64,000 nucleotides of DNA from Mycobacterium sp. (GTDB lineage Bacteria; Actinomycetota; Actinomycetes; Mycobacteriales; Mycobacteriaceae). Below, piece after piece: positions 5,389 to 11,047 of the stretch; position 1 is the stretch's first letter; each line of letters begins with the position of its first letter. The notes under the pieces are model-generated. The model was not told the DNA's origin and made no database searches. It was given only the letters and a program-made list of their open reading frames with translations. The stretch covers positions 18,807 to 82,806 of the forward strand of contig NZ_JAICZA010000001.1 of the NCBI RefSeq assembly GCF_025933915.1, in the 5' to 3' direction. The position numbers and the translations under genes were made by a program.

Positions 5389-6780
5389 ATGTTCTTGGGC
5401 ACGGTTGAGGACTGGACGGCCGAGGGCACCGTCGTATCCTGGTACCCCACCGCGACCACCTATCGGCGCGTAGCCGAAGCGCAATACCACCCGGCCCCGG
5501 TGAGTTATCAGCAGTCGCAGCATCTTCGGTATTACCAGCGCCAGGTCAGCCGTGGCCGCGACATCCCGCGGTTGTGCATCGGGGCCTGGGAAATCAGCGG
5601 CATCTGCGATATCGATGCGATGACGCACGCCGTGAATAGGCACCTGCGGCGACACGACACCTACCACGACCGGTTTGGCTTCGGCGACGACGACGAAATC
5701 CTTCGCTACGTCATTGCCGATCCGGAGGGCATCACGTTGGCGCCAACGGATCTCGGAAGGATGGCCCCGCCCCAGATTCGCAAACTCCTTCTCGACACGC
5801 CCGATCCGCTGCAATGGGACTGCTTCACCTTCGGAGTGATCCAGGCCGATGACCGGTTCACCGTCTACATCGCTGTTGACCACTTGCGCGCCGATGGTAT
5901 GTCGGCCGGGGTGATCTTCCTCGACATCCAGACGATGTATTTCGCCGCGCTGCAGCGCGAACAGAGCCCGTTGACACCCGCTGCCAGCCATCGCGAATAC
6001 AGCGCGAATCAGCATGCGTACACCAGGAGTCTGAGCGAAGAATCGCCCGAGATCCGTTCGTGGCGGGACTTTCTCGCAGCGAACAACGGCGTGCTGCCGA
6101 AATTTCCGCTGGAGCTGGGCGAGGCAGCCGCGGATACCCCGGGGGCCATCGACGTGTTCGACCTGATCGATGACGACCAGGGCCGACGGTTCGAAGCGGC
6201 TTGCCGCGCTGCGGGGGCACGTTTCAGCGGTGGTGTGTTCGCCTGTGCCGCCCTGGCCGAACATCGACTGACCGGCGCCCCAACATATTTCGGGCTTACA
6301 CCGTTCGACAACCGTCGCGACCCCGCCCACGCGACCGCGGTCGGATGGTTGGCCAGTTTCGTCCCGTTGGCGATTCCTACGGCCGGCGCGTCGTTCGACG
6401 AGGTGGTCAGTGCCGCCCAGGCATCGTTTGACGCGAACACCGCCCTCGGCGCCGTGCCGTACTACCACCTGCTCGAGTCGCCCGACCGTTGGTCGGGCCT
6501 CATCGAGGTTCCCGACCGTCCGGTCCCGATGCTGTCCTACATCGACATTCGCAAGCTGCCCTTCGGTGGCTATTTCGACGGTCTGCGCGCAGGTGTCTGG
6601 GGTGACAACCGGCTGTCGGAGACGGTGTGCATGTGGGTCAATCGCATGCACGACAAAACGCAGCTGGTGGTCGCCTACCCGGGCACCGACATCGCCCGCG
6701 GGTCCGTCCTGCGCTACGTCGAGACGATGCGCGCCGAGTTCACCCGGGTGTCCGACGCCGGGCCGCTCCTGGATGCCTGA
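5389..6780 (+). CDS. PapA-type polyketide-associated acyltransferase
   Basis: Condensation-fold acyltransferase of the PapA1/PapA2/PapA3 group, which in mycobacteria transfers fatty or polyketide acyl chains to trehalose-type glycolipids. The 463 residues fit the family. The catalytic HxxxDG motif is HLRADG near residue 163. Family-like segments include HLRRHDTY, WDCFTFGVIQ and LTPFDNRRD. The ATG follows GAAAGG. It is the first gene of a compact operon continuing with a permease, a second acyltransferase and a membrane protein, so synthesis and export of one acylated lipid is likely. No polyketide synthase is present in the window, so the acyl donor is unknown. Confidence 0.82.
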   Translation: MFLGTVEDWTAEGTVVSWYPTATTYRRVAEAQYHPAPVSYQQSQHLRYYQRQVSRGRDIPRLCIGAWEISGICDIDAMTHAVNRHLRRHDTYHDRFGFGDDDEILRYVIADPEGITLAPTDLGRMAPPQIRKLLLDTPDPLQWDCFTFGVIQADDRFTVYIAVDHLRADGMSAGVIFLDIQTMYFAALQREQSPLTPAASHREYSANQHAYTRSLSEESPEIRSWRDFLAANNGVLPKFPLELGEAAADTPGAIDVFDLIDDDQGRRFEAACRAAGARFSGGVFACAALAEHRLTGAPTYFGLTPFDNRRDPAHATAVGWLASFVPLAIPTAGASFDEVVSAAQASFDANTALGAVPYYHLLESPDRWSGLIEVPDRPVPMLSYIDIRKLPFGGYFDGLRAGVWGDNRLSETVCMWVNRMHDKTQLVVAYPGTDIARGSVLRYVETMRAEFTRVSDAGPLLDA

Positions 6781-6810
6781 CGAAGTTCCCGCCCCGCCGG
6801 GGGGCCGGAG

Positions 6811-8457
6811 ATGAGTGCCCTGGTGGCACTCACCCTTCGCACGATGTCAGGCTCCCGGCGCGATGCCGACCTCCTGTTCGCGGCGTTGGCGCCGGTGGGC
6901 TGCTTCCTGGGATTCACCGTGGTGTTGGGCAGCCTGATCCACACCGGCCCGATGACCTACCCGCAATATGTCCTTCCGGTGGTGATCGTGCAGGCGATGC
7001 TGTTCGGGGCGATGACCACCGCCGACCGCGCCGCACGAGACCGACTGTCCGGCTTCGGGTCTCGGCTCCGGACTCTGCCGGTTCCTGCGGCGGTACCGCT
7101 GGCCTCGCGGATGCTCTATTGCTTGATACGCTCGGTCATCGCGCTGGTCGCCGCTCTCGCCGTCGGGTGGTCCTTTGGCTTCCGGATGGCCGGCGGCCCG
7201 GCCGACACGGGCCTGTTCGTGATCATCGTCGTGGCGTTCGCGATGGCGGTGTGCCTTGGCGCCGACGCGTTGGGCTCCCGGGTCGGCTCCGTCGAATCGT
7301 CGAGCCAATTGCTGCTCCTCCCGCAGCTGGTCCTGGTCCTGGTGTCCACGGGCATCGCTCCAGCGGAATCATTTCCGGCATGGCTCGGCCCGTTCGTCCG
7401 CCACCAGCCGGTCTCACGGGTCACCGACACGTTGCGTGGACTCGCCGCCGGTCACGCCACCGGTAGGGAGCTGGTGGCGGCATCGGCGTGGTGCCTTGGA
7501 CTGTTGGCACTTTTCGGCGCTCTGGCGGTGCGGATGCAGCGACGCGTGGGCGGCGGAAGCTTCCGCGCACCTGGGATCGTCCGCAGTCCGCCTCACGACG
7601 GCCGGCAAGCTCGCGACGCGCCTGCGGAACAGCCCCGAGGGGCGGTGACTGCCCATGCAACACAGGGGATTCCGTATGATCCGTCGCTGACGGCGTTCGT
7701 CAGCCAGAGCGCTTCGGAAGCGGGGCGGCTGCTGCGCCGCTGGCGGCGCGACCCGATCGTCGCCGTGCAAGCGCTGTTGTTCCCGACGTTTCTGCTCGTC
7801 GTCTACAAATTGCTGATCGGCAAAGCCGTTCTGGCCGTCACGGGCCACGACAGCCTATACGGGCTGGTCCCGATGTGTGCGGTGGTCGGCGCCGTGTTCG
7901 GAACCCTCGGCGCCGGTTTGGCGTTGCCGGCGGAGCGGGAGTCGGGTGTGCTGACGAGGTTGTGGGTGCAGCCGGTTCATCGAGCCAGCACCGTGGCGGG
8001 CCGACTGGTCGCCGAGGCCGCCCGGACCACCACGTCCGCCATCGTGCTCACCATCTTCGGGATCGCATTGGGCCTGCGATTCAGCTACGGCTGGATCGCG
8101 GTGCCTGCCTTCGTGCTGGTGCCCGTGGCGATTTCGGCGGGAATGGCGTCGTTGGTCATCGCGATCGCCGCCCGCGCGGACGGCAAGGCGATGGTGACCT
8201 GGCTGGGCGCGGGATGCGTCCTGCTGCTGTTCCTCAACACCGGCGTCGCACCCGCCGAGGTGTTCCCGGGCTGGCTGCAACCGGTGGTGCGTTTTTCGCC
8301 CATATCGCCGACGATCGAGGCGATGCGCGGCCTCGCGGAGGGCGGCCCGGTGCTGTCGCCGCTGTGGCAGGCGGGCGTGTGGGCCGGCGTTCTCGTCGCG
8401 GTGTTCGCACCGGCGGCGGTGCGCGGGTATCGCGCCGCGGCCGAGGCGGGATGCTAG
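6811..8457 (+). CDS. Fused ABC-2 type permease (two DrrB/DrrC-like halves)
   Basis: Integral membrane protein of 548 residues made of two tandem ABC-2 permease units joined by a hydrophilic linker near residues 245-295. Each half has about six hydrophobic segments and ends with a similar block (GIAPAESFPAWL in the first, GVAPAEVFPGWLQP in the second), which shows internal duplication. Such permeases export lipids or drugs with a separate ATPase, as DrrA does for phthiocerol lipids. No ATPase gene adjoins, so the ATP-binding partner must be elsewhere. It begins 30 bases after papA, and its stop overlaps the next start by seven bases. Cargo is inferred from the acyltransferase neighbours. Confidence 0.8.
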   Translation: MSALVALTLRTMSGSRRDADLLFAALAPVGCFLGFTVVLGSLIHTGPMTYPQYVLPVVIVQAMLFGAMTTADRAARDRLSGFGSRLRTLPVPAAVPLASRMLYCLIRSVIALVAALAVGWSFGFRMAGGPADTGLFVIIVVAFAMAVCLGADALGSRVGSVESSSQLLLLPQLVLVLVSTGIAPAESFPAWLGPFVRHQPVSRVTDTLRGLAAGHATGRELVAASAWCLGLLALFGALAVRMQRRVGGGSFRAPGIVRSPPHDGRQARDAPAEQPRGAVTAHATQGIPYDPSLTAFVSQSASEAGRLLRRWRRDPIVAVQALLFPTFLLVVYKLLIGKAVLAVTGHDSLYGLVPMCAVVGAVFGTLGAGLALPAERESGVLTRLWVQPVHRASTVAGRLVAEAARTTTSAIVLTIFGIALGLRFSYGWIAVPAFVLVPVAISAGMASLVIAIAARADGKAMVTWLGAGCVLLLFLNTGVAPAEVFPGWLQPVVRFSPISPTIEAMRGLAEGGPVLSPLWQAGVWAGVLVAVFAPAAVRGYRAAAEAGC

Positions 8458-9800
8458 TGACGAGGCTGGCGCTTCTGGACCACGCCGCCTTCCTGCGGCT
8501 GCGCGCCACCGGTCAAGGCAGCACGGTGCAATGCACGTGGGTCTACGACCGCGACGTGAACAGCGACGAATTGCGGGCCTTCAAAGACAATCTCGGGGCA
8601 GGTCTCCTCGGACGCAGGATCGAGCGCTCGCCGCTGCCGTTCGGGCGTCATCGCTGGGTGGTCGACAGCCGCTCGCCGGACATCACCTGCGAACCGCGGC
8701 AACCGCGGCGGGAGATCGGCGCGTGGATCGAGAGACGCGCGCGGGTGCGTGTCGACCCCGAGCACGGCCCGACGTTTCATCTCGGCGTGCTGCCCTTGGA
8801 CGACGGCGGGGCGGCGGTCACCTTGGTGGCGTCACACTGCGTTGTCGATGGACTTGCGATGGCAACGGCCCTAGCCGAGGCGGTCAAGGGAGAACGACGC
8901 AACCTTGGCTATCCGCAGGCGAATTCGCGTGGCCGGTGGCGCACGGTAGGTGAGGACTTGGCCGACGCCGGTCGCGCCCTGCCGGCGGCGATCCGGGCGT
9001 TGCTCGCGACTCTGGCGATAGTGCTCACGGTCTCGTCGGATCGACAGCCACAGCCGCGCGGGCGGCCCCGGGCACCCGACCCAATGGACGATGGCCAGAA
9101 CGCATCGGAGTCCGTGACGTTACAAACCGACGCTGCGGCATGGGACGCGCGTGCGCGCAGCCTCAACGGGAGCAGCAACGCGCTATTCGTGGCGTTCGCG
9201 GCTCGCCTCGCGCACCGGATAGGCAGGGTGCTCCCCGACGGAAACTCCGTGACGGTGGTGCTTCCGGTCAGCGACCGCACCGCCGACGACGACCGCGCCA
9301 ACGCGCTGACCTCGATCACACTCACCGTCGACGGCCACGCGGTGGTTGATCACTTGGGCGGCGTGCGTGCGGAGGTCAAAAGACTGCTGACGTCCCTGGA
9401 GGAACAACCCAACGAGATGCTCGCCGGACTGCCCCTCATCCCGTTCACGCCGCGATGGCTGGTCCGGCGCGCCGAAGGCATCGCCATGTCGTCCGGCCGA
9501 CTGCCGGTGGGTTGCTCCAACCTCGGTAGCCTCGACACCGCCGTCGGCCGCATCGATGGTGCGGATGCGACGGAGGTCTCGATGCGGCTGGCCGAGCAGG
9601 GCATCACCCAGTCGCGCATCGAGCGAGCTCACGGCCAATTGTTCTGCGGCACAGGAACGGTAAACGGCAGCCGCTTTCTCACCATCGTCTCCTACCAGAG
9701 CGGCGCCGGCAACGCCACCGCAGCCACCGGTGAGCTCGCGTGTCGGGCGCTGGCCGACTTGCAGCTGTCCGCGACCACCGTCCACGAGGGCCGGATCTGA
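8451..9800 (+). CDS. Condensation-fold acyltransferase-like protein
   Basis: Protein of 449 residues with a single HxxxDG-type motif, SHCVVDG near residue 128, and the overall layout of condensation/WES acyltransferases: an N-terminal half with the motif and a C-terminal half with VVLPVSDRTADDD and GCSNLGSLD, the latter in the place of the family's DFGWG-like loop. It probably transfers a second acyl group to the product of the upstream PapA-type enzyme. The ATG at 8451 overlaps the end of the permease gene, and the stop shares one base with the next ATG, so translation is coupled. It is more divergent than the first acyltransferase. Confidence 0.65.
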   Translation: MLVTRLALLDHAAFLRLRATGQGSTVQCTWVYDRDVNSDELRAFKDNLGAGLLGRRIERSPLPFGRHRWVVDSRSPDITCEPRQPRREIGAWIERRARVRVDPEHGPTFHLGVLPLDDGGAAVTLVASHCVVDGLAMATALAEAVKGERRNLGYPQANSRGRWRTVGEDLADAGRALPAAIRALLATLAIVLTVSSDRQPQPRGRPRAPDPMDDGQNASESVTLQTDAAAWDARARSLNGSSNALFVAFAARLAHRIGRVLPDGNSVTVVLPVSDRTADDDRANALTSITLTVDGHAVVDHLGGVRAEVKRLLTSLEEQPNEMLAGLPLIPFTPRWLVRRAEGIAMSSGRLPVGCSNLGSLDTAVGRIDGADATEVSMRLAEQGITQSRIERAHGQLFCGTGTVNGSRFLTIVSYQSGAGNATAATGELACRALADLQLSATTVHEGRI

Positions 9801-11047
9801 TGGTGGATCTGGGCCTCGAGGCCAATCAACGCGCACGCCACCGCCACGTCGGAATCGCGGTCGCGATCGCGGCCTGGGCGACGGCCGTGCTGTGGTTCGC
9901 GATCAAGGTCGTTCCGCTCGACGTGTACTGGATGTCGTATTACACCGCCGACTACACCCACGGCTTCGTCCGCCGCGGGCTCGCCGGCGAGCTGGTTCGG
10001 TTGGCCCCGGGCCACTACTTCGCGGCCACGCTCGGTCTCCGGTGGCTGTCCACGGCGGTCTATTTGTGCGGTCTGGCAACGGTTGCCGGCGTGGTGGTCT
10101 TCACCGGCCGTCCGTCTGAACGCAGGCTGATGGTCGCGATGGTGATGCCGTTATTGCCGTTCGGTGTCCCGTTTGCGGCATTCTCGGCTCGGCCGGACCT
10201 GTTCGGCGGGGCGGCCCTGGCGGTGTTCAGCTCGGCGTTGGCGCTCACACGTTCCCGGGCCGTCGCGATCCGATGGTGCGCGGCCTTCGGCGCCGCGATC
10301 GCGGCGTTGACGCTGGTGCACGAGGCGATAGGGCTGCAGTTCGCATTGGGGGCGCTGCTGGCCATCATCGTCCTCGGGCGTGCGCTGGAAACCACCCGGC
10401 GCCGTGGCATGCTGCTGGCCGTGTCGCCGGGGGCCCTCGCCACGGCTGCCGTGGCGGCATACGGCCGCCACGACGTCGCCTCCCAATTGTGTGCGGCGGT
10501 GCCGCATCACCTGGTGCCCAACCCATTTGCCACGGTCACATCACCAGCGACGCTGATGCACTATGTGATCGAGGGACAACCCCGTCAAACCGATTATCAC
10601 GACTGGGTGTGCCGCAACGTGATGCCGAACTTCGACAACGGAATCGCGGACGCCATCCGAACCGTCGGCCACATCGGCATACTCGGCCTCACCGTGTCCT
10701 TGATCTTCGGGGCCGGTGCGGCCGTGGCGACGGTGTGGGGTCTCAGCGCGCTTTCGGGCGTACCGGTGCGCGCGTTCGTCGAGACGCTGCGCGGCGCAGT
10801 GGCCTGGGTCACCGCCGGGCTGCTGTTGGTCATTCCGGTCTTCCTGACCGGCTTCGACTGGACCCGGTGGCTGACGATCGTGACGTTCGATGTTGCCATC
10901 GTTTTCCTCCTATTCGCGGCGCGCCGGCAAGAGATCGAACAGGAACCCACACCAAAAACGTTGCGGTTGTTCATTATTCTGGTCATCGTGCTCGCGCTGA
11001 TCCCGGTAGGCGCCGTGCCGGGCTTCGGCGGACCGCGAATGCTCTGA
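9800..11047 (+). CDS. Polytopic membrane protein of the lipid operon, function unknown
   Basis: About 415 residues with roughly ten hydrophobic segments. An early loop carries YTADYTHGFVRRGLAGEL, a conserved-looking hydrophilic block after the first membrane span, and a large loop near residues 250-280 holds HDWVCRNVMPNFDNG. The layout (acidic and arginine residues in the first extracytoplasmic loop) recalls GT-C type glycosyltransferases, but no diagnostic motif was recognised. The ATG overlaps the preceding stop (TGATG), so it belongs to the acyltransferase operon and may modify or move the lipid. Confidence 0.6.
   Translation: MVDLGLEANQRARHRHVGIAVAIAAWATAVLWFAIKVVPLDVYWMSYYTADYTHGFVRRGLAGELVRLAPGHYFAATLGLRWLSTAVYLCGLATVAGVVVFTGRPSERRLMVAMVMPLLPFGVPFAAFSARPDLFGGAALAVFSSALALTRSRAVAIRWCAAFGAAIAALTLVHEAIGLQFALGALLAIIVLGRALETTRRRGMLLAVSPGALATAAVAAYGRHDVASQLCAAVPHHLVPNPFATVTSPATLMHYVIEGQPRQTDYHDWVCRNVMPNFDNGIADAIRTVGHIGILGLTVSLIFGAGAAVATVWGLSALSGVPVRAFVETLRGAVAWVTAGLLLVIPVFLTGFDWTRWLTIVTFDVAIVFLLFAARRQEIEQEPTPKTLRLFIILVIVLALIPVGAVPGFGGPRML

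Follow-up and report, generated by a model that had tools for sequence, protein, structure and literature searches.

Mycobacteria send their surface lipids out through dedicated machinery. In the Mycobacterium tuberculosis complex, the DrrABC transporter of the phthiocerol dimycocerosate/phenolic glycolipid (PDIM/PGL) locus is a type V ATP-binding cassette (ABC) exporter. PDIM export in M. bovis BCG requires all three of its genes, drrA, drrB and drrC (PMC11539658), with coupling-helix mutants at DrrB R121 and DrrC W115 supporting the proposed coupling to the ATPase (PMC11539658). A complete three-gene DrrABC transporter also lies beside nonribosomal peptide synthetase (NRPS) and MmpL genes in the M. 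avium complex, in an NRPS-MmpS-MmpL-MmpL-drrABC arrangement that we take, from this context, to be the glycopeptidolipid (GPL) locus. Sharing of a single ATPase among several permeases has a precedent in mycobacteria, namely MceG (PMC9947336). Here we analyze an operon of a Mycobacterium sp. (RefSeq assembly GCF_025933915.1) in which four co-directional open reading frames (ORFs; positions 5389-11047, plus strand) encode a PapA-type acyltransferase, a fused DrrB::DrrC permease, a second acyltransferase (AT) and a multi-pass membrane protein (MP), with no drrA among them. The operon lies in a stretch of 64,000 nucleotides, the whole of which is referred to as the window and which is part of contig C179 of a 5.0-Mb draft genome (319 contigs; 99.99% complete, by the tool's estimate). 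We found no literature on a PapA-permease-AT-MP operon, nor anything on it under the drrC/gtfB region of the M. avium complex.

The permease matches TIGR00025 (E = 1.5e-60) and TIGR01248 (E = 8.6e-63) above their curated cut-offs, each in two stretches of the one ORF. By these profile matches its halves are the DrrB- and DrrC-type membrane subunits of a DrrABC-type (type V) ABC exporter, which bears out a first-pass annotation, made from the sequence alone, that had read the gene as a fusion of two DrrB/C-like halves. The permease resembles the PDIM/PGL-locus transporter in its DrrB- and DrrC-type halves, in the residues aligning with R121 and P126 of the DrrB coupling helix and with R113, W115 and P118 of that of DrrC, all retained, and in its association with acyl-lipid enzymes that include a PapA. 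It differs in that the two halves form one chain, in that its operon lacks drrA, MmpL7 and a polyketide synthase (PKS), and in its identity of ~34% to PDIM-type DrrB/C. The GPL-locus DrrABC is a close paralogue, its DrrA showing 66-72% identity to the lost DrrA and its DrrB and DrrC 45-53% to the fused halves, and is absent from the window's genome. Mce transporters resemble the permease in having no ATPase in their operons, being served by MceG encoded elsewhere (PMC9947336), but they are lipid importers of another ABC class, and ATPase sharing is experimental there, whereas here we infer it.

Among relatives, the operon occurs in three states. Of 199 genomes sampled from the genus, 54 contained the MP, and a profile search yielded 43 named loci. 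Four genomes (OAS707, M. moriokaense GAS496 and two metagenome-assembled genomes) carry the full arrangement PapA-DrrA-DrrB-DrrC-AT-MP, with the transporter genes in exactly the same slot. The intact fused arrangement, PapA-DrrB::DrrC-AT-MP without drrA, was found at 14 loci, comprising the window and 13 others that include M. colombiense strains, M. vulneris, WUMAC-067, M. rhizamassiliense, M. numidiamassiliense and E1214, while 13 loci, among them M. scrofulaceum, M. nebraskense, M. europaeum, M. triplex and M. sherrisii, present PapA-AT-MP without any permease. Because 13 other records show an intact fused ORF without drrA in the same place, the fusion and the missing ATPase are real, and a sequencing error or frameshift as their cause is excluded. 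The fused halves are far closer to the separate DrrB and DrrC of the full operons (Table 1) than to other DrrB/C proteins (45-60% identity) or to the PDIM type (34%), indicating that full and fused operons carry the same transporter.

A tree inferred from PapA, AT and MP, and rooted with distant clusters, placed the full operons at the base, the fused operons as a paraphyletic group and the permease-less operons nested within it. Approximately unbiased (AU) tests rejected the constraint that all permease-bearing genomes form one clade excluding the permease-less ones (P = 0.0045), as well as constraints forcing the permease-less operons (P = 0.0031) or the fused operons (P = 0.028) into one clade each; given the long outgroup branch, the nesting is firmer than the exact position of the root. 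In M. nebraskense, the 109-nt spacer between PapA and AT retains ~65 nt of the permease start (score 80, against a shuffle maximum of 39; none of 200 shuffles did as well) and a match to the permease end over 21 of 22 nt (1 of 200 shuffles did as well), and since remnants of both ends persist, the permease was deleted in this species. Matches to the permease start better than all 200 shuffles were also present in a few other PapA-AT spacers. The AU test and the deletion scar together rule out that the permease was a late addition to a PapA-AT-MP operon. No significant drrA remnant was detected in the window's PapA-permease spacer, and the loss of drrA is deduced from the tree, from the homology of DrrB and DrrC and from the presence of drrA in the operon of all four full genomes. 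As read from these sequences, the order of events runs from a full DrrABC to a fused permease without its ATPase, and from there to loss of the permease.

Pairwise comparisons among the fused genomes yielded dN/dS values of 0.06-0.18 for PapA, 0.11-0.24 for the permease, 0.19-0.43 for AT and 0.22-0.30 for MP, so that the permease generally lies below both AT and MP. Within the permease, values are low in the DrrB (0.08-0.22) and DrrC (0.04-0.17) halves and rise in the linker that joins them (Table 1). Along the branch leading to the window, 42 codon changes in the permease are silent and 11 are replacements (N/S 0.26), with no relaxation relative to its sisters. By these measures the permease is under purifying selection and shows no sign of decay. 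Conservation extends to the coupling helices, where P90, R383, W385 and P388 are present in 14 of 14 fused orthologues and R85, which aligns with DrrB R121, in 13 of 14. The DrrB-half coupling helix shares 75% identity with its counterpart in GPL-locus DrrB, compared with 51% across the entire half, and so ranks third among 234 sequence windows. A structure model of the fused permease was too poor for use (predicted local distance difference test, pLDDT, 42.7). Purifying selection and conservation of the coupling helices together suggest that the permease probably uses an ATPase encoded elsewhere.

A plasmid search returned distant matches only, and the match in Nocardia farcinica (NZ_LN868939.1) consists of two separate genes with no fusion. 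These adjacent drrB-/drrC-like genes (locus L249, 3872-5584) have no drrA-like gene within ~4 kb and are possibly an independent ATPase-less pair.

For the DrrA of one full genome (protein P0008 of genome G163), relatives with 65-70% identity map downstream of two MmpL genes, in the locus taken here to be that for GPL, and a second DrrA class, with ~55-57% identity to P0008, lies beside papA5 (PDIM) where checked; PapA5 itself (PF16911) had no match in the window's genome, with other genomes as positive controls. A free DrrA with 67-72% identity to the lost one was found in 12 of the 12 other named fused genomes searched. We give an even chance to the reading that the operon is a reduced module for acyl-lipid synthesis and export, its fused exporter drawing energy in trans from the DrrA of another locus. 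On the cytoplasmic face, PapA and AT would add acyl groups to a (glyco)lipid; the single-chain permease, as the membrane component of a type V ABC exporter, would move the product or an intermediate outwards; and MP, as a GT-C-like (glycosyltransferase C) protein, may modify the lipid at the membrane. The deletion of drrA and the fusion of drrB with drrC took place in an ancestor, and the DrrA acting in trans would in most species probably be that of the GPL locus. We infer that DrrA docks on the permease and that transport is outward, and likewise what MP does and what the substrate is. More tentatively, one lineage of mycobacteria may have turned a dedicated DrrABC lipid exporter into a system with a shared subunit, in which a single GPL-locus DrrA drives both the GPL transporter and the fused permease, the latter for a second acyl-lipid, with the partner DrrA since lost in the window's species.

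Several observations weigh against an ATPase supplied in trans. The search for an orphan DrrA-type ATPase that the first-pass annotation had suggested found none in the window's genome, where the best match to the lost DrrA has 38-39% identity and none reaches E ≤ 1e-50, an absence that is strong yet unproven because the assembly is a draft in 319 contigs. The same genome holds no orthologue of the GPL-locus MmpL-DrrABC segment, its best MmpL match being 60% identical as opposed to 90-97% between relatives. Permease-less genomes also retain a free DrrA, so that the presence of one is not diagnostic, and in BCG the loss of drrA abolishes PDIM export (PMC11539658), which implies that other ATPases there gave no substitute. 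The DrrC coupling helix shows no excess likeness to that of GPL-locus DrrC (0.52, against 0.47 overall), a fifteenth fused locus, in M. arosiense, is frameshifted, and among relatives at least one loss of the permease has occurred. The shared ATPase proposed in the first-pass annotation is favored by coupling-helix conservation and purifying selection, whereas the window's own genome has offered no partner for it. For the family as a whole it is plausible.

In the M. arosiense record (locus L190, 7010-8658), the frameshift that splits the fused permease may reflect either decay or an assembly error.

Taken as decay, it would fit the most serious rival explanation, according to which ABC export has become superfluous to the module, for instance because an MmpL protein has taken over or because the product stays in the inner membrane, so that the ATPase was lost first and the permease is a slowly vanishing leftover. 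The inferred succession of full, fused and permease-less operons, with the permease gone in 13 related records, points in this direction, as do the M. nebraskense scar and the lack of a DrrA in the window's genome. A useless gene, however, should have lost its reading frame by the time the window and E1214 had diverged to 74% identity, and instead there are 14 intact fused ORFs with low dN/dS in both halves, relaxation confined to the linker, and nearly invariant coupling residues. We regard decay as unlikely on this evidence, though well worth keeping in view. A poorer prospect is that a more distant ABC-2 ATPase drives the permease in the window's species. Such ATPases exist, and selection on the permease along the window's own branch is intact despite the lack of a close DrrA, but the six DrrA-like ATPases examined in this genome have at most 39% identity to the lost DrrA and each stands beside a permease of its own. 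As partners for the fused permease they were rejected on that ground, those of contigs C13, C85, C102, C124 and C185 each adjoining their own permease and that of C237, located beside an NRPS start, having its own 543-aa permease. Marginally less probable still is an ATPase-independent role, in which the fused permease would be a scaffold or passive flippase holding the acyltransferases at the membrane: its persistence without a linked ATPase, in a genome with no recognizable DrrA partner, is compatible with such a role, but a scaffold would not need the coupling-helix residues kept in 13-14 of 14 orthologues, PDIM export in BCG needs each of drrA, drrB and drrC (PMC11539658), and the retained ATPase-contact residues likewise disfavor the stand-alone flippase offered in the first-pass annotation.

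The C237 genes (locus L028, 2-4762) are an observation in their own right: an NRPS gene start with 51% identity to the start of the GPL-locus synthetase, an ABC ATPase of 303 aa and a two-unit permease of 543 aa lie side by side and are possibly a different lipopeptide export module.

By sequence, PapA is an acyltransferase, belonging to the condensation-domain family and carrying the HxxxDG motif, whose HLRADG form is conserved in 32 of 32 close orthologues scored. AT matches TIGR02946 (wax ester synthase/diacylglycerol acyltransferase, WS/DGAT) alone, weakly (E = 9e-5), and carries an HCxxDG motif in the 32 orthologues scored. MP has no Pfam or NCBIfam family match, and its likeliest Foldseek matches are the GT-C enzymes AglB, STT3, Pmt4, PglB and ArnT (probability up to 0.97), but with E ≥ 0.02 and template modelling (TM) scores of at most 0.43, a weak resemblance. 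Its first extracytoplasmic loop contains no Asp or Glu invariant across 27 sequences, the acidic residue looked for in GT-C enzymes; the loop at 38-72 retains Y43, S46-Y48, Y52, G55, F56, R58-L61 and G63. MP homologues with internal stop codons were also observed in two reduced 3.3-Mb genomes of the genus (G115:C1:2069971-2071119 and G075:C1:989145-990224).

Adjoining genes of the same PapA, AT and MP families, at 36-46% identity, occur in distant PKS-PapA-AT-AT-FAAL-MP-MmpL clusters (L110 and L112-L114), where FAAL denotes a fatty acyl-AMP ligase; the PKS is of the Pks2 type and the FAAL of the FadD21/28 type, and two such genomes (L116 and L117) have DrrABC together with FAAL and MmpL. These clusters resemble acyltrehalose-type clusters, and the window's operon differs from them in lacking PKS, FAAL and MmpL. 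By analogy, it may be a reduced acyl-lipid module of the acyltrehalose type, which makes plausible the trehalose-type or other acylated lipid named in the first-pass annotation. With no PKS in the operon, acyl donors would need to come from unlinked synthases, and two Pks2/Pks5-type PKS genes are found unlinked elsewhere in the window's genome (C304 and C82). Complete DrrABC operons also lie near MP homologues in other gene clusters, at L182 (10001-16072) and L189 (421-5507), an arrangement suggestive of a recurring MP-DrrABC partnership. Elsewhere in the window's genome, a second PapA (42% identity) is directly followed by an AT relative (50%) cut short where the contig stops (L035, C162, 6705-8668), forming a paralogous acylation pair.

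The compact gene order described at first pass holds in part (Table 1). Its 1-base overlap is seen twice, at 8457, where a G is common to the permease TAG and the AT GTG start, and at 9800 (TGA/ATG), but the 7-base overlap is not seen with the likeliest starts, which leave PapA and the permease 30 nt apart. The absence of an ATP-binding subunit and of a lipid synthase, also noted then, was confirmed: contig C179 holds no DrrA-type ATPase, the operon contains no PKS, no lipid-type PKS or full transporter cluster is linked to it, and no methyl-branched-lipid PKS, FAAL or MmpL gene lies in or adjoins it. Upstream, a mycobactin NRPS/PKS cluster ends in mbtA and is followed by genes for 3-deoxy-D-arabino-heptulosonate 7-phosphate (DAHP) synthase and malic enzyme on the minus strand; with this cluster as neighbor, the nearest PKS genes are assigned to mycobactin synthesis. 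A PPE gene lies downstream.

Table 1. Features of the PapA-permease-AT-MP operon, in window coordinates.
Feature	Coordinates	Strand	Properties
PapA-type acyltransferase	5389..6780	+	463 aa; PF00668 E 7e-18; HxxxDG motif = HLRADG
Fused DrrB::DrrC ABC-2 permease	6811..8457	+	548 aa; TIGR00025, TIGR01248 and PF01061, two stretches each
DrrB half (aa 1-245)	6811..7545	+	79-80% identity to separate DrrB of four drrA-bearing genomes
DrrB-half coupling helix TTADRAARDRLSGFGSRLRTLP (aa 69-90)	7015..7080	+	R85 and P90 conserved; likeness to GPL-locus DrrB
Linker between halves (aa 246-300)	7546..7710	+	dN/dS 0.27-0.74; poorly conserved
DrrC half (aa 301-548)	7711..8454	+	81-82% identity to separate DrrC of four drrA-bearing genomes
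DrrC-half coupling helix ALPAERESGVLTRLWVQPVHRAS (aa 371-393)	7921..7989	+	R383, W385 and P388 invariant; W385 = DrrC W115 by alignment
Second acyltransferase (AT), distant WS/DGAT/PapA relative	8457..9800	+	GTG start; motif HCVVDG; TIGR02946 E 9e-5
Multi-pass membrane protein (MP)	9800..11047	+	415 aa; GT-C-like predicted fold; AlphaFold2 pLDDT 90.2

Together, these results trace a single exporter through the loss of its engine, while its membrane part was fused and kept under selection, and bring to light an uncharacterized PapA-AT-MP module common to scrofulaceum-, colombiense- and triplex-type mycobacteria. If the permease does borrow a DrrA, one ATPase would couple the export of two distinct lipids, much as MceG links Mce1 with Mce4, and if the window's species has indeed lost the partner DrrA, it would constitute a natural test of ATPase promiscuity.

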